A DNA stretch of 64,000 bases. Source: an uncultured Gemmatimonadales bacterium. GTDB taxonomy: Bacteria; Gemmatimonadota; Gemmatimonadetes; JACCXV01; JAHWKZ01. Of this stretch, positions 17,285 through 49,672 are shown one piece after another (within the stretch, counting starts at the first letter, position 1; each line of letters begins with the position of its first letter). Below the pieces are notes generated by a model that saw nothing but the letters and a program-made list of their open reading frames with translations, was not told the DNA's origin and did no database searches. The DNA lies in NCBI GenBank assembly GCA_947259315.1, contig CAMYLR010000029.1:17443-81442 (forward strand). The letters run 5' to 3'. The translations under genes and the position numbers were made by a program.

Positions 17285-17611
17285 TCAGCGGTTTTCGATC
17301 GACGCCGCTTCGCGGGCGGCTCGGTAATCGCGGAAGCGAGTCAGCACGGAGTCGAGCGCGGCGTACGACCGGATTCCGCAAAGATCGCAAAGGTCGGAGT
17401 ACACATCGATCGCCTCCCAGTTCTCGTCGCCCGAGTCGAAGAAACCTCGCTCCTCGAGCGCCTCGGCCAAGAATGGAATGCGGTAATCGTCACCCTCTGG
17501 CCCGGCGATCGGGCGCACAACGCGATCGATGAAGTACAGATCTTGAAGAACGATCTCTGGCTCGACGCGGGACTGCATGCGGTCGAGGCGCTCGAACAGC
17601 AGATCTTCCAC
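17285..17611 (-). CDS. Small soluble protein of unknown function
   Basis: The 108-residue product starts at a GTG (VEDLLFERLDRMQSRVEPE). It is acidic, helical in appearance and carries two cysteines in LCDLCGIRSYAALDS. No signal peptide or membrane helix is seen. Its stop lies 15 bp before the start of the MgtC-like gene, so it may share that transcript. I recognise no family, and no function is offered. Confidence 0.55.
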   Translation of the reverse strand: MEDLLFERLDRMQSRVEPEIVLQDLYFIDRVVRPIAGPEGDDYRIPFLAEALEERGFFDSGDENWEAIDVYSDLCDLCGIRSYAALDSVLTRFRDYRAAREAASIENR

Positions 17612-41062: not shown

Positions 41063-43180
41063 ATGTCACGCGATCGCCGTAAACGATTACCGACCCAACC
41101 GAGCCCAACGGTCATGACGCAAGCCAGCGAAAAGACCCTCTACGACTACCAGCGCCTGTTCGAACGGGTGCCGGACGGCGTCTATCAAACCACCCCCGAA
41201 GGCCGAATCGTGGCCGCCAATCCGGCTCTACTCAACATGCTCGGTTACGACACCCTGGAAGAGCTCAAAGAGATCGACATCGCCACTACTCTCTACGTCG
41301 ACCCCGCCGCCAGAGAGGCGTGGGGACAACAACTCGAGAGCGACGGCAAAGTGCACAACATGGAGATTGTCTTAAGGCGCAGAGACGGAACTCGTATCGT
41401 CGTGCTTGACAACGCCGTTGTCGTCACAGACGACAACGGAGACGCGCTCTTCTACGAGGGAACGCTCACCGACATTACGACGCGCAAACAGGCCGAAGAA
41501 GAGTTGCGCAGGAGCGAGAAGAGATTCCGGGATCTATTCGAGGCTTCCCCTGACCCGATTTTCGTCGAGGATCCAGATGGAAACGTTTTGGACGCAAACC
41601 CGGCCGCTACCGAGCTACAGGGCATCGACAGGGAGACGCTGATCGGCATGAATATCTCCGAGCTCGTGCCGCCCGAGTACGTCGAGTTCGCGCAGGACCA
41701 CCATCGTCGACTGGTGGAAGGCGAGGTAGAGCAGATCGAAGGCTTCACGTGGGCCGCCGATGGCCGCGCCATCCCGGTCGAAATACGGGCCAGACCACTG
41801 GAGTACCGTGGGCAACGAGCGGTGTTGGTCCACGTTCGTGATGTCACCGAGCGGAGAGAGCAGCAAAAGCGGCTTGAGCAGCTGGCCCAGTTCGACGCGC
41901 TGACCGGGCTACCCAACCGGTTCCTCTTCGAGGACCGTTTGAATCAAGCCGTTCTTGGGACGCGGCGGACGGGCGAACGAATCGCGCTCCACTACCTCGA
42001 CCTCGACGAGTTCAAGCAAGTCAACGATACCCTCGGCCACCCGATCGGCGACAAGCTGCTCAAAGCGGTCGGCCATCGACTCAACAACCTCGTTCGCGAA
42101 ACCGACACCGTGGCTCGTCTGGGCGGCGATGAGTTCGCCATCATACAGACTGACATTCACGGTGCCACGGGAGCGAGCGCGTTCGCCCTGCGGATCCAGG
42201 AAGCGATGATCGCGCCGTTCACCATCAGCGAGAATGAGATCCACACCAGCACGAGCATCGGCATCACCGTTTCTTCACCTGGAGACGAGCCGAGCGAGTT
42301 GTTGCTGCAAGCCGACCGCGCGTTGTACAAGGCCAAAGAGCGAGGTCGGCAGCGGTTTCATTTTCACAATCAGGAGCTGGCCGAGGAGGTCGAGCGGTAT
42401 GTATCGATCCGCAGGGATCTCCGAGATGCGGTTAGCCGTGACGAGTTTTTCCTCGAATATCAACCGCAGATCGATCTCAGAACCGGTGGGATCGTTGGTT
42501 CGGAGGCGCTCGTTCGCTGGCAACATCCGAAACGCGGGAGACTGCCCCCGGGCGAGTTCATCCCGGTTACCGAGAACACGGGCCTCATCAGCGCCATCGG
42601 CGAGTGGGTGCTCCAAGAAGCGTGTCGGCAGCGTCGTGAATGGTGCGACCGCGGTCTGACAAAGGTCCCGGTGGGGGTCAACCTGTCCGCGGTGCAGTTC
42701 AGGGACCCCCGGTTCAGCGACAAACTCCAAACCTTGCTCGAGTCCACCGGCGTGAGACCCGATCTGCTCGAGCTCGAGCTCACCGAGACGATCCTCATGC
42801 AGGGGTCCTCGGCTATCCAGCGTGCGCTCACGCACTCCGACAAGAGCGGCATCTCGATCGCTATCGATGACTTCGGTACCGGGTACTCGTCCCTTCAGTA
42901 CCTGCGCGAGTTTCCGGTACGCCGGCTCAAGATCGCGATGGAGTTCGTTCAGGGCGTGACCGAGGATCCCGACGATGCAGCCATCGTTGCGGCGGTGATC
43001 AGCCTTGGACACGAGTTGGGGATAAGGGTCATCGCCGAGGGTGTCGAGACGGAAGAGCAGGTCGAGTTCTTGAAGGCCCACGGCTGCGATGACGCCCAGG
43101 GGTTCTACTTCGGCCGCCCTCTCGCCGCGGAGGCATTCGCCGAGCGCCTCAACCATCTCTCAGGACGTCAAGTTCCGTAG
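41063..43180 (+). CDS. PAS-PAS-GGDEF-EAL protein, c-di-GMP turnover
   Basis: The 705-residue protein has no signal or membrane helix. Two PAS domains (about 25-140 and 150-265) are followed by a GGDEF domain with the active site GGDEF (354-358), the metal Asp in LDLDEFK (313) and an intact RxxD inhibitory site RETD (345-348). The EAL domain starts with SEALVRW (481-483) and keeps VNLSAVQF, ELTETIL, DDFGTGYSS, the lysine of LKIA, AEGVETEEQ and AQGFYFGRP. The usual LKID has Ala for Asp, which is not one of the catalytic residues I know. Both activities seem possible. It lies directly upstream of a c-di-GMP riboswitch. Confidence 0.95.
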   Translation: MSRDRRKRLPTQPSPTVMTQASEKTLYDYQRLFERVPDGVYQTTPEGRIVAANPALLNMLGYDTLEELKEIDIATTLYVDPAAREAWGQQLESDGKVHNMEIVLRRRDGTRIVVLDNAVVVTDDNGDALFYEGTLTDITTRKQAEEELRRSEKRFRDLFEASPDPIFVEDPDGNVLDANPAATELQGIDRETLIGMNISELVPPEYVEFAQDHHRRLVEGEVEQIEGFTWAADGRAIPVEIRARPLEYRGQRAVLVHVRDVTERREQQKRLEQLAQFDALTGLPNRFLFEDRLNQAVLGTRRTGERIALHYLDLDEFKQVNDTLGHPIGDKLLKAVGHRLNNLVRETDTVARLGGDEFAIIQTDIHGATGASAFALRIQEAMIAPFTISENEIHTSTSIGITVSSPGDEPSELLLQADRALYKAKERGRQRFHFHNQELAEEVERYVSIRRDLRDAVSRDEFFLEYQPQIDLRTGGIVGSEALVRWQHPKRGRLPPGEFIPVTENTGLISAIGEWVLQEACRQRREWCDRGLTKVPVGVNLSAVQFRDPRFSDKLQTLLESTGVRPDLLELELTETILMQGSSAIQRALTHSDKSGISIAIDDFGTGYSSLQYLREFPVRRLKIAMEFVQGVTEDPDDAAIVAAVISLGHELGIRVIAEGVETEEQVEFLKAHGCDDAQGFYFGRPLAAEAFAERLNHLSGRQVP

Positions 43181-43409
43181 GAATGAACTCTCTTTCCACG
43201 TCGTCTGCAAGGCAAAATCTCAAAACGATAGGCAACACTTTTCCAACCTTGTAGGTAACGGTTTTCCGTTGCGTAGGAACCCGGTCTCCACTCGGTAACC
43301 CCTACGCCCCTGAGCGGCGCCTCTCATGTCCTCTCCATTCCCACCCCCCTACCACCACTGGCACACCCGTTGCCTTGTCCAAGGGCACTTCCCCCGACCA
43401 AATAGCCCC
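43181..43409 (+). other. Leader region before the riboswitch, with two hairpins
   Basis: Nothing coding is seen in these 229 bases. AACGG-TTTT-CCGTT (43257-43270) and GCGTAGG (43271-43277) with CCTACGC (43301-43307) are two adjacent inverted repeats. After them the sequence is pyrimidine-rich. The region may hold the 3' end of the GGDEF-EAL transcript and a promoter for the riboswitch transcript, but I cannot point to a convincing -35/-10 pair. The hairpins lack a long T-run on the plus strand. Confidence 0.4.
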
Positions 43410-43502
43410 TCGGTCCAGGGCAAACCCCGCGAGAGCGGGCGACGCAAAGCCACGGATCCTCACTGCAACAGCAGCGGACAGCCGGGCTACCCGAAAAACC
43501 GA
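43410..43502 (+). promoter_or_regulatory. Cyclic di-GMP-I riboswitch (GEMM)
   Basis: The sequence holds the signature pieces of the class I c-di-GMP riboswitch in order: CCAGGGCAAACC, a stem closed by a GAGA tetraloop (CCCGC-GAGA-GCGGG), GACGCAAAGCC, a variable stem, and the 3' piece ACAGCCGGGCTACC. TCGGT (43410-43414) can pair with ACCGA (43498-43502) to close the element. The GNRA tetraloop and the GCAAAGCC segment match the known aptamer, which uses a tetraloop-receptor contact. The piece AGGGCAAA has G where the cGAMP-binding variant has A, to my knowledge. It precedes the TPR gene at 43557. Confidence 0.92.
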
Positions 43503-43506
43503 AACA

Positions 43507-43550
43507 CCTCGCATGCGCCAGCCGATTCTGAAGGCGCAGAACCGAGGAGG
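43507..43550 (+). promoter_or_regulatory. Riboswitch expression platform covering the Shine-Dalgarno
   Basis: Right after the aptamer, CCTCG (43507-43511) can pair with CGAGG (43543-43547), and TGCGCC (43514-43519) with GGCGCA (43533-43538). Together they form an extended hairpin. The right arm contains most of GAGGAGG (43544-43550), the Shine-Dalgarno of the ATG at 43557. Formation of this hairpin would block translation, so ligand binding probably controls ribosome access. No T-run follows, which argues against a transcriptional terminator. Confidence 0.65.
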
Positions 43551-43556
43551 CATTGG

Positions 43557-44654
43557 ATGGAAGTTTTGCCAGCGAACCCTGCTGCGCCTTCAGACGATCC
43601 AAGCGACACCATGGGTGGATCGCAACCGTTCATGCTCGTACAGATGGCTATGGCCAAGGCCGATGCCCTGACGCGCGCGCAACGGTGGGATGCCGCCCTG
43701 GATGCCTACGGAGATGCCATACGGCTCGCCGGGGACGACGGGCTCGGCCTTGCAACAAAGGCCGATGCTCATCGTGGCGCAGGGATCGTTCACATGCGGT
43801 GCAGCAACTGGGACGGGGCTGAATGTGAGCTACTGGAGAGTCAAGCGTTCGCGTCGCAGTTGAAGGACGACCGGCGGTTGGCTCTGGTCAAGAACGTCCG
43901 AGCCGCCGTCGCGTTCGAACGCGGCGATTGGCAGGACGCTCAGCAACTGTACCGAGCGGCGCGGGGACACGCGGCCGCCTCCGGCAGCACACGGCTTCTG
44001 GCCCAGATCGACAACAACGAAGGCGCGCTCTGGTCGGCACTCGGCCACCAGAAGCGGGCGGAGGCGTGCTTTAGGCGCGCCCTCGAGCTTTTTGAAGAGC
44101 TCGACAACCACCCGTGCGGCGCGCGCACACTCAACAACCTCGGCATCGCGCTGGTCGCGCAAGGTCGCCTCTGGGAGGCAGACAACGTCTACGACCGGGC
44201 GATGCGCGAGTGCAAGCGGCAAGGCGACAGAACCCTGGCCGCCGAGGTCATGCTCAACCGAGCGGACCTCGCGTACACCCGAGGCAACGAACATCAAGCT
44301 CAGTCGCTCGCGGACCGCGCACGCACGTTCGCAGAGCACTTGGAGAACGTCGTCGTACAGGCGAGCGCGCTCCGAATCTTGGGCGGTGTTTCTCGGGTCT
44401 CCGGAGATCTGAGGCTCGCCGAGCAACAAATCGAAACGGCCATTGAGCTTAGCCGGGGCGGAACAGCCCCGTTGAGCGAGGCCGAGGCATGGGCAGAGCT
44501 AGGCCTTCTGTTCATGGACCGACATGACCCACAACGAGCTGAGGACGCCTGGCGGCGGGCTCAGTCCATCTATCGTGACTTGGGGAACACGACCGAGGCT
44601 GATCGACTCGATCAGCAGATCGGTTCCTCCAAGAGACGGTCGGAGGCCGCATGA
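43557..44654 (+). CDS. TPR-repeat protein under riboswitch control
   Basis: The 365-residue protein starts at the ATG at 43557, six bases behind GAGGAGG. An upstream frame crosses the riboswitch and is rejected. It consists of tetratricopeptide-like helical repeats from about residue 25 to the end (for example AEACFRRALELFEELDNHPC, ARTLNNLGIALVAQGRL and AEDAWRRAQSIYRDLGN), with no signal peptide or enzymatic domain. Such proteins act as protein-binding scaffolds. Its repeats resemble those in the HD-GYP protein at the end of the cluster. The stop overlaps the first lipoprotein start (ATGA), so translation is coupled. Confidence 0.88.
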   Translation: MEVLPANPAAPSDDPSDTMGGSQPFMLVQMAMAKADALTRAQRWDAALDAYGDAIRLAGDDGLGLATKADAHRGAGIVHMRCSNWDGAECELLESQAFASQLKDDRRLALVKNVRAAVAFERGDWQDAQQLYRAARGHAAASGSTRLLAQIDNNEGALWSALGHQKRAEACFRRALELFEELDNHPCGARTLNNLGIALVAQGRLWEADNVYDRAMRECKRQGDRTLAAEVMLNRADLAYTRGNEHQAQSLADRARTFAEHLENVVVQASALRILGGVSRVSGDLRLAEQQIETAIELSRGGTAPLSEAEAWAELGLLFMDRHDPQRAEDAWRRAQSIYRDLGNTTEADRLDQQIGSSKRRSEAA

Positions 44655-45202
44655 CAAGCATCAAGAAGACTCATCGCGGTCAGCTCGTCGCGATCCTGGT
44701 TGCAGCGGTCGCCTTCTCTCTCACTGCGTGTGAGAGCGGAAATGGCCCCGTGGCTTTCGAGGATATCGACAACAGCCCGACCGTAACGATCAACGGCGTA
44801 CAGCTGCTGAAGGCTCCGGCCGGACTCCGGTTGGCTTCTTCGGCCAGCGCGCAGATGGACCAGAGCGGCGGCACCATCAATGTCGATGGTGCGTGGCTCA
44901 CCGTCCCATCGGGCGCGCTCAGCAGCAACACCACAATCACAATGGCCAACGGCAGTGACCTGTGGGCCTACGACTTTGGGCCCGAAGGCCTGACGTTCAA
45001 CTCTTCGGCAACGCTTACGGTCAAGATCACAGTGACCGAGCTGACCCAGCTGGGCGTTGACCCGAATGCTCTCGCAGTTGCTTACGCCACAAACGGCGGC
45101 AGCAACAACTGGCAGATCTTGGGTGGCAGCTACGACCCGATCAAGCAAGAGATCGATCTGCCGGTCGACCACTTCTCTGTCTACGCCTTGTGCGTCGAGT
45201 AA
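44651..45202 (+). CDS. Lipoprotein with ZU5-like domain and YALCVE end, member 1
   Basis: The 183-residue product has a lipoprotein signal with lipobox SLTAC (Cys27). Glu at +2 of the cysteine points to the outer membrane under the rule known for E. coli. The mature part is one beta-rich domain: TVTINGVQLLKAP, VPSGALSSNTTITMANGSD, LWAYDFGPEGLTFNSSATLT and LPVDHFSVYALCVE. The pattern resembles ZU5-type domains. The ATG overlaps the stop of the TPR gene. Function unknown. The C-terminal cysteine is shared by all six members. Confidence 0.85.
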   Translation: MTSIKKTHRGQLVAILVAAVAFSLTACESGNGPVAFEDIDNSPTVTINGVQLLKAPAGLRLASSASAQMDQSGGTINVDGAWLTVPSGALSSNTTITMANGSDLWAYDFGPEGLTFNSSATLTVKITVTELTQLGVDPNALAVAYATNGGSNNWQILGGSYDPIKQEIDLPVDHFSVYALCVE

Positions 45203-45273
45203 GGGAGGAGACGACGATGCGAGACTTTCACAATAGACCCAGCACCAACATCAAGGACTTGAGGAGGCATCAC

Positions 45274-45822
45274 GTGTTGCAACGACACAGCATGCTCAAG
45301 CGCCTGATGGTCGTCGCGGTCGCACTCGGCTTCGTTGCCTGTGGCGAGGATTCCGGTCCTATGTCGCCTGGCGCACAGGGGCCGATCGACAACCCCGCGA
45401 CCGTAACCATCAACGGCGTTGAACTGCTGAAAGCACCGGTCGGACTGCGGCTCGCCTCATCGGCGAGCGTGCAGATGGACCAGAGCGGCGGCACCGTCTC
45501 AGTCGACGGTGCGTGGCTCAGCGTCCCCTCCGGCGCGCTCAGCGGTAGCACCACGATCAGCATGGCCAACGGCAGTGACCTTTGGGCGTACGACTTCGGG
45601 CCGGACGGCCTGACGTTCAACTCATCGGCCACACTGACGGTCAAGATCACCGTGGCGGAGCTCCAGGCCGCAGGCATCGACACAAATGCCCTTGCCGTTG
45701 CTTACGCCACCAACGGAAGCAGCAACAACTGGCAGGTTCTCGGCGGTAGCTACGACTCCGTCAAGGAAGAAATCGAACTGCCAGTCGACCACTTCTCAGT
45801 CTACGCACTCTGCGTGGAGTAG
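45274..45822 (+). CDS. Lipoprotein with ZU5-like domain and YALCVE end, member 2
   Basis: This member is very close to member 1 over the whole mature domain (for example VPSGALSGSTTISMANGSD and LPVDHFSVYALCVE). The start chosen is GTG at 45274, with GAGGAGG 6 bases upstream, giving 182 residues and a compact signal ending GFVAC. An ATG at 45217, also with a good ribosome-binding site, would add 19 residues. Gly follows the cysteine, compatible with the outer membrane. The similarity to member 1 implies a recent duplication. Confidence 0.83.
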   Translation: MLQRHSMLKRLMVVAVALGFVACGEDSGPMSPGAQGPIDNPATVTINGVELLKAPVGLRLASSASVQMDQSGGTVSVDGAWLSVPSGALSGSTTISMANGSDLWAYDFGPDGLTFNSSATLTVKITVAELQAAGIDTNALAVAYATNGSSNNWQVLGGSYDSVKEEIELPVDHFSVYALCVE

Positions 45823-45895
45823 GGAGACGGGAGAACGGATCATGTTGGTCTTCACACTAGCCACGGCCTCAACGCAAGAAGGAGGAAAAGACGTG

Positions 45896-46462
45896 ATGCG
45901 ACAAGGCATCATCAAGCAGTGCCTGTTAGTGACGGCGTACGTCATCGTCGCGATCGGCATCGTGCTTGGCGTGGTGGCGTGTGGACAGGACGAAGGTCCG
46001 TTCTCCCCCTCAGGCCAGGATCCTGGACTGAACGAAGCGACGGTAACGATCAACGGCGTGAAATTGCTGAAAGCACCTGGTGGATTGCGGCTCGCCTCAT
46101 CGGCGAGCGCGAAGATGGATCAGGCCGGCGGCACCATCTCGATCGGCGACGCCTGGCTCACCGTCCCGACCGGCGCGCTCAGCAGCGGCACGACGATCAC
46201 AATGGCTCACGCCAGCGACCTGTGGGCGTACGACTTCGGGCCCGACGGCCTGCAGTTCAATACGTCCGCCACGCTGACGGTCAAGATCACGCTCACTCAA
46301 TTAGTTGAAATTGGCGTCGATCCGTACGACTTGAGGATCGCCTACGCCACCAATGGTTTTACCAACGACTGGCAGATCTTGGGTGGCAGCTACGACCCCA
46401 TCGCCCAGGAGATCAGTCTTCCGGTTGATCACTTCTCCCGCTACTCGCTCTGCATCGAGTAG
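45896..46462 (+). CDS. Lipoprotein with ZU5-like domain and YSLCIE end, member 3
   Basis: The product has 188 residues. The start is the ATG of a GTG-ATG pair behind GGAGG (45881-45885), in the sequence GTGATGCGACAAGG. The signal ends IVLGVVAC. The mature domain follows members 1 and 2 (TINGVKLLKAPGGLRLASSA, VPTGALSSGTTITMAHASD, LPVDHFSRYSLCIE) but has more changes. The C-terminal ending has Ser in place of Ala. A similar GTGATGCGAC start is seen before member 6. Confidence 0.83.
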   Translation: MRQGIIKQCLLVTAYVIVAIGIVLGVVACGQDEGPFSPSGQDPGLNEATVTINGVKLLKAPGGLRLASSASAKMDQAGGTISIGDAWLTVPTGALSSGTTITMAHASDLWAYDFGPDGLQFNTSATLTVKITLTQLVEIGVDPYDLRIAYATNGFTNDWQILGGSYDPIAQEISLPVDHFSRYSLCIE

Positions 46463-46510
46463 ACGGTGTAGGTGAAGAACATGCACGCAACACCACAGAA
46501 GGGACACAAC

Positions 46511-46807
46511 ATGGGACTACACGGCTTGATCAAATTCATGCTGGTCGCCGCGGCCGTGACCGCATTCGCGGCCTGCGGGCAGGATGGCAGTCCGCTTGGC
46601 CCGAGCGACCAGCCAACGATATCCAGTGAAACGACGAGCGCGCCTTCGGGGCCCGCCGTCAGCGCCGAAAGCACGGCCAGCGACAGCACGTCGATGACAA
46701 ATCAGTCCGCCAGCTTTGGGCTCGGCGGTTGGAATGGTCTCGGCGGTGGTGGCGGCTTCGTGCCTTACGGCATGATGCGCGACTGCTACGCGCTCTGCAT
46801 CGAGTAG
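46511..46807 (+). CDS. Short lipoprotein with YALCIE end, member 4
   Basis: The product is only 98 residues from the ATG at 46511, which has AGAAGGGA upstream. The signal ends VTAFAAC and the next residues, GQDGSPLGPSD, are like those of the other members. The ZU5-like domain is absent. Instead there is a Ser/Thr-rich and then Gly-rich stretch (FGLGGWNGLGGGGGFVPYG), which leads into MMRDCYALCIE. The retained C-terminal ending without the domain suggests either a decayed copy or a form in which only the tail matters. Confidence 0.75.
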   Translation: MGLHGLIKFMLVAAAVTAFAACGQDGSPLGPSDQPTISSETTSAPSGPAVSAESTASDSTSMTNQSASFGLGGWNGLGGGGGFVPYGMMRDCYALCIE

Positions 46808-46840
46808 CCAACGTTAACGAACGGAAGAACGAAGCCAGCC

Positions 46841-47470
46841 ATGATCGCAGCCAAGAAGACGACACCCCACCTGATGCCCCTCGGTAGGCTCAAGAGCCTG
46901 CTGGTCGTCGCGGTCGTGGCTGGCCTTACCGCCTGCGGGCAGGACGACGGCCCGTTCGCCCCGATAGCCCAAGAGACGGCGCAGAACTCTGCAACCGTCA
47001 CCATCGACGGTGTTGAGTTGCTGGTCGCCCCAGGCGCGAGTGAAGAGATCGCTCGATTTGGCAGGAAGGTCAGGACTAAGAAGTGCTCCACGAGGGCCCG
47101 GAAGAACATGACTAACAACGGTGGAACGCTCGCCGTTTGCGGTGCCCAACTCACGGTCCACTCAGGCTCCTTCCCGCGAACCGAGCATTTGTGGATGATA
47201 ACCGGAGACACGCGGGACGACGGCCTCTGGTCGTACGAGTTCGGTCCTCACGGGATCCAATTCCGGCACACGCCGGCGACGCTCACCATCGAAGTCACAC
47301 CTCGCCAACTCAAGTCGATGGGGATCGACCCCGATCGGTTGAGCATCGCTTACGTCACCGGCCAGGGGCATGGCAACTGGCAGGTCATCGGTGTCGACTA
47401 CGACTGGGACAGCCAAACGATCTCGGCTCCGGTCTGGCATTTCTCGCGCTACGCGCTGTGCGTCGAATAA
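46841..47470 (+). CDS. Lipoprotein of second subfamily with YALCVE end, member 5
   Basis: The 209-residue product has a lipoprotein signal ending AGLTAC. After TVTIDGVELLVAP the domain departs from members 1-3. It has an extra cysteine pair (KKCSTRARKNMTNNGGTLAVC) and then HSGSFPRTEHLWMITGDTRD, DGLWSYEFGPHGIQF and APVWHFSRYALCVE. The last part again has the ZU5-like end. The two inner cysteines, about 20 residues apart, may form a disulfide. An ATG 11 codons further in is an alternative start. Confidence 0.82.
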   Translation: MIAAKKTTPHLMPLGRLKSLLVVAVVAGLTACGQDDGPFAPIAQETAQNSATVTIDGVELLVAPGASEEIARFGRKVRTKKCSTRARKNMTNNGGTLAVCGAQLTVHSGSFPRTEHLWMITGDTRDDGLWSYEFGPHGIQFRHTPATLTIEVTPRQLKSMGIDPDRLSIAYVTGQGHGNWQVIGVDYDWDSQTISAPVWHFSRYALCVE

Positions 47471-47483
47471 AAGAGGCAAGACG

Positions 47484-48110
47484 ATGTTTCGAAATCAGCC
47501 AGCTTCAACCTCGAAAAACGAAAGGACTCAGGTGATGCGACACCTAGGCGCGGTGAAGCGCCTGTTGGTCGTCGCGGTCGCGCTCGGCTTCGCGGCTTGT
47601 GGAGAGGACACCAGTCCCGTAGCACCGGGACAGGACATCATATCGAGCGCTTCGACCGTTACGATCAATGGCGTAGAGCTACTCAGAGCCCCGGAAGGCG
47701 GATTGGCGCTGGCGGGCAAGAGGTGCGGGACGTATGACCGTAGGAACATCACCAACAACGGCGGGACGCTGAGCGTATGCGATGCCGAGTTGGAGATTCA
47801 TCATCACTCGTTCCCGCAGACCGAGCGACTCTGGATGCAGACCGGTGACACGCGCGATGACGGTCTCTGGTCGTACGAGTTCGGGCCCAGCGGAACGCAG
47901 TTCGAGAACACGCCGGCGACGCTGACCGTTTTCGTCACCGCCGGTGAGCTGCAGTCGATGGGATTCGATCCCGACCAGTTGAGCATCGCCTACGTGACCA
48001 GCCCCGATCACGAGGATTGGCAGGTCATCGGCGTCGACTATGACTGGGATAGCCAGTCGATCTCAGCCCCGGTCTGGCACTTCTCACGCTACGCCCTCTG
48101 CATCGAGTGA
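47484..48110 (+). CDS. Lipoprotein of second subfamily with YALCIE end, member 6
   Basis: The 208-residue product is a close copy of member 5 (RRNITNNGGTLSVCDAELEI, TGDTRDDGLWSYEFGP and APVWHFSRYALCIE). The signal ends ALGFAAC. The ATG at 47484 has AGAGG upstream. A second ATG at 47535 in the GTGATGCGAC context gives a more compact signal peptide and may be the real start. The stop overlaps the start of the HD-GYP gene (GTGA), so the last lipoprotein and the enzyme are translationally coupled. Confidence 0.83.
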   Translation: MFRNQPASTSKNERTQVMRHLGAVKRLLVVAVALGFAACGEDTSPVAPGQDIISSASTVTINGVELLRAPEGGLALAGKRCGTYDRRNITNNGGTLSVCDAELEIHHHSFPQTERLWMQTGDTRDDGLWSYEFGPSGTQFENTPATLTVFVTAGELQSMGFDPDQLSIAYVTSPDHEDWQVIGVDYDWDSQSISAPVWHFSRYALCIE

Positions 48111-49672
48111 GCACGACGCAGAACACCATACGACGGGCCACCGATTGGCCCGAGCTATCCCTGGCGGCGATCGAAGCGCGTATGCGCCACGTCTGGAACG
48201 AAGGTCGTGGCGATGAAGCCGGCGCGCTCGCCAGCCTGGGATTGATCACCGCTCGGCGCCAACACCGACCCACTGAAAGCATAACCCCGTTCCTGAGCGT
48301 CGTCGGCGCGATCGCTTTCGAGAGTGGCCAGCTCGATAAGGCCCAGCGACGGTTCGGAGAAGTCCTTCATATCGCGAGGAAAGCTGGAACCGCCAAGAGC
48401 GAAGCGGCGGCGCTCAGCAACCTCGGCGCGATCGCCAATGTCCGTGGCGACTTTGCGATTGCGCTTTGGAACTACCGTTGCGCGCGGGGTGCCTTCCGGC
48501 GCGCAAACTCGACGAATGGCGAGGCGCGAGCGCTCCAAAATATGGGAATGGTCCACGCGGACCTACGGCGGTTCAAAGAAGCCGCCGAGTGCTATGAAGC
48601 GGCTCGCGACCTCGCCATCGATTGTAACGACCCTGAATTGATCACGATCATCACGCTGAACATGATCGAAATTGACCTGAAGACGGAAGATCTCGATCGT
48701 GCGCGTCAAAACTGCGACGACGCGATGCGGCGCGCGACCCAGATCGGCAATGATCACTGTATCGCCGAGGCCCATCGTTACAAGGGAGAGATTTTCCACC
48801 GGTTCGACGAGATCGATCAAGCCAAGCGCTCTCTCAACCAGGCGATATCGATGAGCCACGAGGCCGGCATTCCGCTGGCCGAAGCCGAAGCGCTGCGGTC
48901 GATGGGTGAGCTCCACCTGTCTCAGAATGACCGCGAGGCCGCGCTTGGCGCTTTTGGACAAGCGTTCAAGCTCTTTATCGGTCTGGATGCGGAACACGAG
49001 CTGGCGGAGAGCGTTCTCATTCGGATTATCGAACAGCTCTCAGCGGAAGAGGAGAGCCGGGATCCCCACCTCCACGGCCACTCCGCAAGAGTGGCCGATA
49101 TGGCGGTCGCGATCGCCGACGAGATGGGATTGGATTGCAGGACCAAGAAAGCGATCCTCGTTGCCGGGTATCTGCACGACATCGGCAAGCTCGACGTGGA
49201 CCCCGACATCCTCAACAAGACAGGCAGGCTCACCGCCCAGGAACTGGCCCACGTCCGCGATCACGCCGCATTTGGCGCGGCCCGGTTGGAGAAGCTCAAT
49301 CTGCCGTGGGATATCGTTCCGATGGTACGCCATCATCATGAACGGTTCGACGGCAACGGCTACCCCTGTCGCCTGGCAGGCGAGGAGATCCCATTGGGCG
49401 CTCGGATTCTGGCGGTGTGCGACATGTTCGAGGCGCTTACCTCCGACCGCCCGTATCGCTTAGCTTGGAACGCCGACTGGGCGCTCCACTACATCGAGAG
49501 CTCGGCCGGACACATAGGCGATCCGAAGGTCGTCGAGGCATTTATGCGAGTGGTCAGAAAACTCGGTCTGGCGACCCAGGGCGGTGCATTCAACTCGACG
49601 TCACAGGACGTCATCGAAGCTCTGTCGACGATCGAGGAGCCTGAGAAGCTGAGAGCGGTCGCGGGCGGCTAG
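48107..49672 (+). CDS. TPR and HD-GYP protein, c-di-GMP phosphodiesterase
   Basis: The 521-residue protein has TPR-like helical repeats at about residues 60-300 and a C-terminal HD-GYP domain. The metal-site pieces are HGHSARVADMAVAIADEMG, LHDIGKLD (His357, Asp358), RDHAAFGAARL, and HHERFDGNGYP (410-420) with GYP at 418-420, then LAVCDMFEALTSDRPYR. These are the residues of active phosphodiesterases that linearise c-di-GMP to pGpG or GMP. There is no signal peptide, so it works in the cytoplasm. Its TPR part resembles the first protein of the cluster. It ends the run that starts with the riboswitch. Confidence 0.93.
   Translation: MSTTQNTIRRATDWPELSLAAIEARMRHVWNEGRGDEAGALASLGLITARRQHRPTESITPFLSVVGAIAFESGQLDKAQRRFGEVLHIARKAGTAKSEAAALSNLGAIANVRGDFAIALWNYRCARGAFRRANSTNGEARALQNMGMVHADLRRFKEAAECYEAARDLAIDCNDPELITIITLNMIEIDLKTEDLDRARQNCDDAMRRATQIGNDHCIAEAHRYKGEIFHRFDEIDQAKRSLNQAISMSHEAGIPLAEAEALRSMGELHLSQNDREAALGAFGQAFKLFIGLDAEHELAESVLIRIIEQLSAEEESRDPHLHGHSARVADMAVAIADEMGLDCRTKKAILVAGYLHDIGKLDVDPDILNKTGRLTAQELAHVRDHAAFGAARLEKLNLPWDIVPMVRHHHERFDGNGYPCRLAGEEIPLGARILAVCDMFEALTSDRPYRLAWNADWALHYIESSAGHIGDPKVVEAFMRVVRKLGLATQGGAFNSTSQDVIEALSTIEEPEKLRAVAGG

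Follow-up and report, generated by a model that had tools for sequence, protein, structure and literature searches.

We analysed a stretch of 64,000 nucleotides (the window; positions 17,443 to 81,442) of contig CAMYLR010000029.1 (C29), which belongs to the draft genome GCA_947259315.1 of an uncultured Gemmatimonadales bacterium. This is a Gemmatimonadota metagenome-assembled genome (MAG) of 2.4 Mb in 33 contigs, and its nearest relatives are also Gemmatimonadota MAGs. Within the window, a riboswitch of the cyclic di-GMP (c-di-GMP) type is followed on the same strand by a gene for a TPR protein, a tandem array of lipoprotein genes and a gene for a TPR protein carrying an HD-GYP phosphodiesterase domain (Table 1). 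The lipoprotein and enzyme genes adjoin each other in relatives throughout the class, so the group is apparently a genuine signalling module that has not been described before. An earlier interpretation made from the letters of the window (the sequence-only reading) had described these features, together with the GGDEF-EAL gene that precedes them, as one locus that makes, senses and degrades c-di-GMP. Inspection of the open reading frames (ORFs) and comparison with Rfam and Pfam located every element that it named. Its six tandem lipoproteins resolve into five full-length genes and, in fourth place, a remnant that has lost its central domain. The first and last joins of the run are 4-bp overlaps, as it had described: ATGA at 44651 (TPR/LP1) and GTGA at 48107 (LP6/HD-GYP). 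The GTGA join is also present in the same-genus relative G001.

Table 1. Features of the riboswitch-lipoprotein-HD-GYP locus (window positions; LP, lipoprotein; AF2, AlphaFold2; RBS, ribosome-binding site).
Feature	Position	Strand	Basis and remarks
PAS-PAS-GGDEF-EAL protein	41063..43180	+	Pfam; adjoining gene, judged outside the module; not at the same place in G001
Intergenic stretch 5' of aptamer, probable operon promoter region	43181..43408	+	Conserved with G001
c-di-GMP-I (GEMM-I) riboswitch aptamer	43409..43494	+	Rfam RF01051, 59.5 bits; P1 strands 43410-43413 and 43491-43494
Expression platform	43495..43556	+	CCUCG 43507-43511 can pair with CGAGG 43543-43547, masking Shine-Dalgarno GAGGAGG 43544-43550
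TPR protein, first gene 3' of riboswitch	43557..44654	+	TPR_12 and related Pfam models; RBS read
LP1, predicted lipid-anchored ZU5-domain protein, C-terminus HFSVYALCVE	44651..45202	+	Lipobox LTAC; AF2 model; Foldseek
LP2, LP1 paralogue	45217..45822	+	76% identity to LP1; start ambiguous (45217 or later)
LP3, LP1 paralogue	45896..46462	+	64% identity to LP1
LP4, 98-residue remnant	46511..46807	+	Alignment: lipobox and YALCIE tail kept, ZU5 domain lost
LP5, second lipoprotein subtype	46841..47470	+	46% identity to LP1, 66% to LP6
LP6, second lipoprotein subtype	47535..48110	+	42% identity to LP1; GTGA overlap with HD-GYP gene
TPR/HD-GYP phosphodiesterase (predicted), GTG start	48107..49672	+	HD_5 7e-36, TPR_12 3e-20; active-site residues present

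To follow the module beyond the window we compared it with 100 relatives. The window TPR/HD-GYP protein (P0003) has matches of 78% identity in G001, 44% in G003 (same family) and approximately 30-35% across the class, and many matches to the lipoprotein profile fall at the same places. Lipoprotein matches were counted at E<=1e-6 and a distance of 3 kb. By this count 20 of 29 standard-length TPR-HD-GYP genes across the class have a lipoprotein gene close by, versus 0 of 16 HD-GYP genes matched over the HD-GYP domain only; the hypergeometric probability of about 3e-6 serves only as a guide, since the genomes are related and some carry several copies. A weaker lipoprotein match lies next door in five of the remaining nine (G080, G050, G044, G064 and G032). 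We therefore take the core of the module to be a ZU5 lipoprotein and a TPR-HD-GYP protein, a pair that recurs across the class; only some of the module loci also encode a free TPR protein.

The order riboswitch-TPR-LP-HD-GYP in G001, with a single lipoprotein gene, corresponds to riboswitch-TPR-LP x6-HD-GYP in the window, and in G003 the order is riboswitch-LP-TPR-TPR/HD-GYP-riboswitch-LP-LP-TPR. Relative to G001, the lipoprotein array of the window has grown from one gene to six. The genome search that the sequence-only reading had proposed, for this riboswitch followed by TPR, lipoprotein and TPR/HD-GYP genes, thus finds the arrangement again in the same genus and, in altered order and duplicated, in the same family, with the riboswitch itself confined to few lineages. 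The lipoprotein ending YALCxE that it gave as a search key is specific to one family, the general signature being HFSxY. Its grouping of riboswitch, lipoproteins and HD-GYP gene, which it would have given up had related genomes never kept them together, is borne out by this recurrence. Outside Gemmatimonadota we found no module: among 80 public loci with lipoprotein relatives, a P0003-like HD-GYP protein (>100 bits) occurs in four, all of them Gemmatimonadota records. In two distant modules (L074:8189-9226 and L075:7956-8993) a sigma-54 activator gene stands between the lipoprotein or TPR gene and the HD-GYP gene.

The GGDEF-EAL gene, a PAS-PAS-GGDEF-EAL protein by Pfam, does not share this conservation. 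In G001 an amidohydrolase gene, whose product is 81% identical to one encoded upstream of the GGDEF-EAL gene here, is directly followed by the conserved leader and riboswitch, so the gene appears to have been either gained in the window lineage or lost in G001. A closed circuit, in which this gene, the riboswitch, the lipoproteins and the HD-GYP gene form one local make-sense-degrade unit, would account for its adjoining the riboswitch operon on the same strand and would give a role to the only EAL domain and one of the four GGDEF domains in a genome that also encodes five HD-GYP domains. Such a circuit is nevertheless very unlikely. G001 has no such gene at the corresponding place although it retains the leader, riboswitch and flanking genes; the distance from the gene to the aptamer here is 229 bases; and a GGDEF gene is found near the module at just two of the other loci, immediately adjoining it at one. 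Because of its absence at this place in G001 we judge the GGDEF-EAL gene to be a neighbour and not part of the module, contrary to the sequence-only reading. Its EAL domain (42413-43177) reads LKIA where a solved relative and other relatives have LKID, which makes hydrolase activity of this domain uncertain.

All six lipoproteins, the remnant included, have a lipobox cysteine (read by eye as LTAC, FVAC, VVAC, FAAC, LTAC and FAAC in LP1 to LP6). An AlphaFold2 model of the lipoprotein, built on 36 aligned sequences, reached a mean predicted local distance difference test (pLDDT) score of 92.4, and Foldseek matched it to the ZU5 domains of ankyrin (E 1.3e-5) and ZO-1, to UNC5b and, more weakly, to NLRP1 and to GAIN domains (CD97, BAI3). 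A profile search of the sequences of solved structures gave just weak matches to ZO-1 ZU5 along with chance matches. With LP1, LP2 and LP3 scoring 15.1, 12.7 and 13.2 bits against a gathering score of 21 for Pfam PF00791, we speak of a ZU5-like fold and not of Pfam membership; on the model, the lipoproteins are predicted to be lipid-anchored ZU5-like domains. Ratios of nonsynonymous to synonymous substitution (dN/dS) of 0.18-0.42 between copies indicate purifying selection, so the lipoprotein copies have been kept functional.

Near the chain end these domains carry a conserved motif. Sixteen members from across the class all have H174, F175, S176 and Y178. In a wider set of 102 aligned relatives, HF is always followed by a possible nucleophile: S in 85, T in 16 and C in 1. 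The AlphaFold2 model places the HF-S motif between the final two strands, and 24 of the 25 lipoprotein genes at module loci encode a chain that stops 7-8 residues from the motif serine. Cleavage of PIDD takes place at HF/S immediately behind its ZU5 domains, and that of CARD8 just ahead of its last strand (PMC3210808); ZU5 self-processing has been proposed for bacterial surface proteins (Zhang et al. 2012, PMC3482391). The predicted fold and an HF-S before the last strand, as in PIDD, are thus common to the lipoproteins and the ZU5/FIIND/GAIN superfamily (PIDD, NLRP1, CARD8, UNC5b, ankyrin, CD97), from which the lipoproteins differ in being small, stand-alone and apparently lipid-anchored, with just 7-8 residues past the motif. 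With the bacterial ZU5 surface proteins and toxins (PMC3482391) they share a ZU5-type domain on an exported protein; here there are no toxin or repeat domains, and the link is instead to an HD-GYP enzyme.

By analogy with PIDD and GAIN domains, the lipoproteins might cut themselves at HF-S, leaving a 7-8-residue C-terminal strand (SxYALCVE here, SxYAVAW elsewhere) clipped in and releasable or exposable at the surface; a cyclic dinucleotide would then set the supply through the riboswitch, with the TPR-HD-GYP protein as a brake. We consider this a long shot. The motif may instead have a structural role, with the tail being no more than the final strand. A peptide signal of this kind would fit the gene for a family-5 solute-(peptide-)binding protein that lies directly 3' of the HD-GYP gene in two distant modules (L070:10833-12455, L075:10635-12266). 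Members of the lipoprotein family also occur singly: one on contig C3 of the same genome (L025:5884-6414) ends in HFSRYALCME and has no riboswitch or HD-GYP gene nearby, and another stands apart in the same-genus relative (L120, CSMAG_2013). More widely, exported proteins with ZU5-like domains bearing HF[ST]xY occur across many phyla and also in archaea (L121-L197).

In the enzyme, the HD pair, HH, GYP and the metal ligands are all present, and 22-23 of 23 module members have them as well. Among solved proteins the closest are the cGAMP-specific V-cGAP3 (5z7c; cGAMP, cyclic GMP-AMP), which is the best match, and PmGH (4mcw), with which the enzyme shares the HD, GYP and metal-site residues and from which it differs in its N-terminal TPR part. 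Given these two neighbours, both c-di-GMP and cGAMP are possible substrates. The position equivalent by alignment to PmGH Glu185 is occupied by His in the window enzyme and by Tyr in the remaining 22 members. A TPR protein encoded beside a TPR-bearing c-di-GMP enzyme recalls RcbA and RcbB of Vibrio vulnificus, a TPR protein and a TPR-GGDEF protein whose TPR parts interact and control enzyme activity (PMC12282931). The likeness is one of domain make-up and gene neighbourhood, and lipoproteins and a riboswitch are added here; since the enzyme domain is a degrading HD-GYP and not a GGDEF cyclase, the pair does not belong to RcbAB and at most works like it. By this analogy the TPR partner probably tunes the HD-GYP enzyme.

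The aptamer is the sole riboswitch found in the window and matches its Rfam model in full (positions 1-87) at an E value of 4e-9, well above the cut-off of 35 bits. The TPR ORF opens at 43326 and would enclose it; the likely start, however, is the ATG at 43557, six bases past GAGGAGG, which places the aptamer in the leader of the TPR gene. In sequence, structure and pocket the aptamer is like known c-di-GMP-I riboswitches (RF01051 / RF03167): with residues numbered by comparison with Vc2, G20, A47 and C92 are present in the window and G001 aptamers, and G20 and A47 in both G003 copies. In GEMM pockets, G20 is associated with c-di-GMP recognition and A20 with that of 3',3'-cGAMP. The module riboswitches of the two most distant lineages, G035 and G071, have A20, which suggests cGAMP as their ligand; A20 is also found in one of nine aptamers of the window's own genome (C11). 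The A20 aptamers lie at L023:7232-7342, L067:8489-8573 and L060:6205-6296, the last two leading module copies in other genera. The messenger could thus be cGAMP, or both dinucleotides, in some lineages, the riboswitch pocket and HD-GYP specificity having changed together, and V-cGAP3 as best match would agree with this. We think it quite unlikely, in view of G20 in the window, G001 and both G003 aptamers, and because the substrate of an HD-GYP domain is not readable from sequence. PMC8835794 states only in general that pocket variation in GEMM riboswitches gives cGAMP recognition.

The nine c-di-GMP-I-type riboswitches of the 2.4 Mb genome are spread over contigs C4, C11, C24, C29, C30 and C32 (L020-L024), and those outside the module mostly precede genes for lipoproteins or exported proteins. 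Rfam labels seven of them c-di-GMP-I-GGC; we set this label aside because those read in alignments carry A47, and treated them as ordinary c-di-GMP-type pockets. A tenth, sub-threshold stretch (L022:3243-3300; 27 bits) with a shortened P3 lies upstream of a lipoprotein/beta-propeller gene.

The best explanation of the locus, which we hold with somewhat better than even confidence, is a c-di-GMP-gated operon of surface lipoproteins with a built-in feedback phosphodiesterase. It draws on the high-scoring aptamer with its c-di-GMP-type pocket, the conserved leader, the overlapping genes, the predicted ZU5 fold, the intact HD-GYP motifs, the neighbourhood kept in relatives, purifying selection on the lipoprotein copies, the lipoprotein or exported-protein genes behind most other riboswitches of the genome and the RcbA/RcbB precedent. 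The riboswitch in the 5' leader would mask or free the ribosome-binding site of the first gene in an operon that encodes the TPR protein, the paralogous lipid-anchored ZU5 proteins and the TPR/HD-GYP enzyme as a single transcript. The c-di-GMP level would set the amount of surface proteins made, and the co-produced enzyme would lower c-di-GMP again; the two TPR proteins would meet, and the free one would tune the enzyme as RcbA tunes RcbB. Negative feedback through the HD-GYP enzyme is plausible, and the direction in which c-di-GMP would set lipoprotein levels is uncertain. The operon probably has a promoter of its own in the conserved stretch 5' of the aptamer; a consensus promoter scan identified none, its one weak site being on the opposite strand and no better than chance. 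The leader is conserved between the window and G001, including the hairpin that masks the Shine-Dalgarno sequence, and control by the riboswitch is likely translational.

Three observations weigh against a gated operon. The Shine-Dalgarno sequence is masked in both modelled states of the window leader, by the 5' strand of P1 in the free state and by the downstream CCUCG with the aptamer held fixed; the G003 leaders likewise stay masked, and two-state folding gave no clear ON or OFF switch. Internal promoters could lie in the gaps of 30-90 bases that separate the lipoprotein genes. Finally, GEMM-I aptamers directly precede the module in G001, G003 (twice), G035 and G071, but ten other module loci have no riboswitch even at E<=2, so the switch is dispensable for the module as such and is a recurrent addition rather than a universal component. 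The riboswitch might alternatively govern only the TPR gene by hiding its ribosome-binding site, with the lipoproteins and the enzyme translated independently or from internal promoters and the neighbourhood reflecting some other shared function. The leader hairpin does cover just the first ribosome-binding site, the lipoprotein genes have their own, and most class modules lack a riboswitch. We nonetheless regard control of the TPR gene alone as unlikely, since both G003 riboswitches directly precede a lipoprotein gene and the TPR-LP1 overlap favours coupling.

The components of the module are of known kinds and their combination is new. What sets this aptamer apart from known c-di-GMP-I riboswitches is its regulated unit of ZU5 lipoproteins and TPR-HD-GYP; no description of such a module, and nothing on c-di-GMP riboswitches in Gemmatimonadota, was found in the literature searched, which left most subscription journals outside its scope. 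Here an RNA sensor for a cyclic dinucleotide, a predicted hydrolase of this messenger and a defined family of putative surface lipoproteins are brought together in one genetic unit. As the core pair of ZU5 lipoprotein and TPR-HD-GYP protein recurs class-wide, any cultured member with this pair could serve to test it, and small stand-alone bacterial ZU5 domains with the PIDD cleavage motif make the self-processing proposed for bacterial ZU5 proteins (PMC3482391) directly testable.

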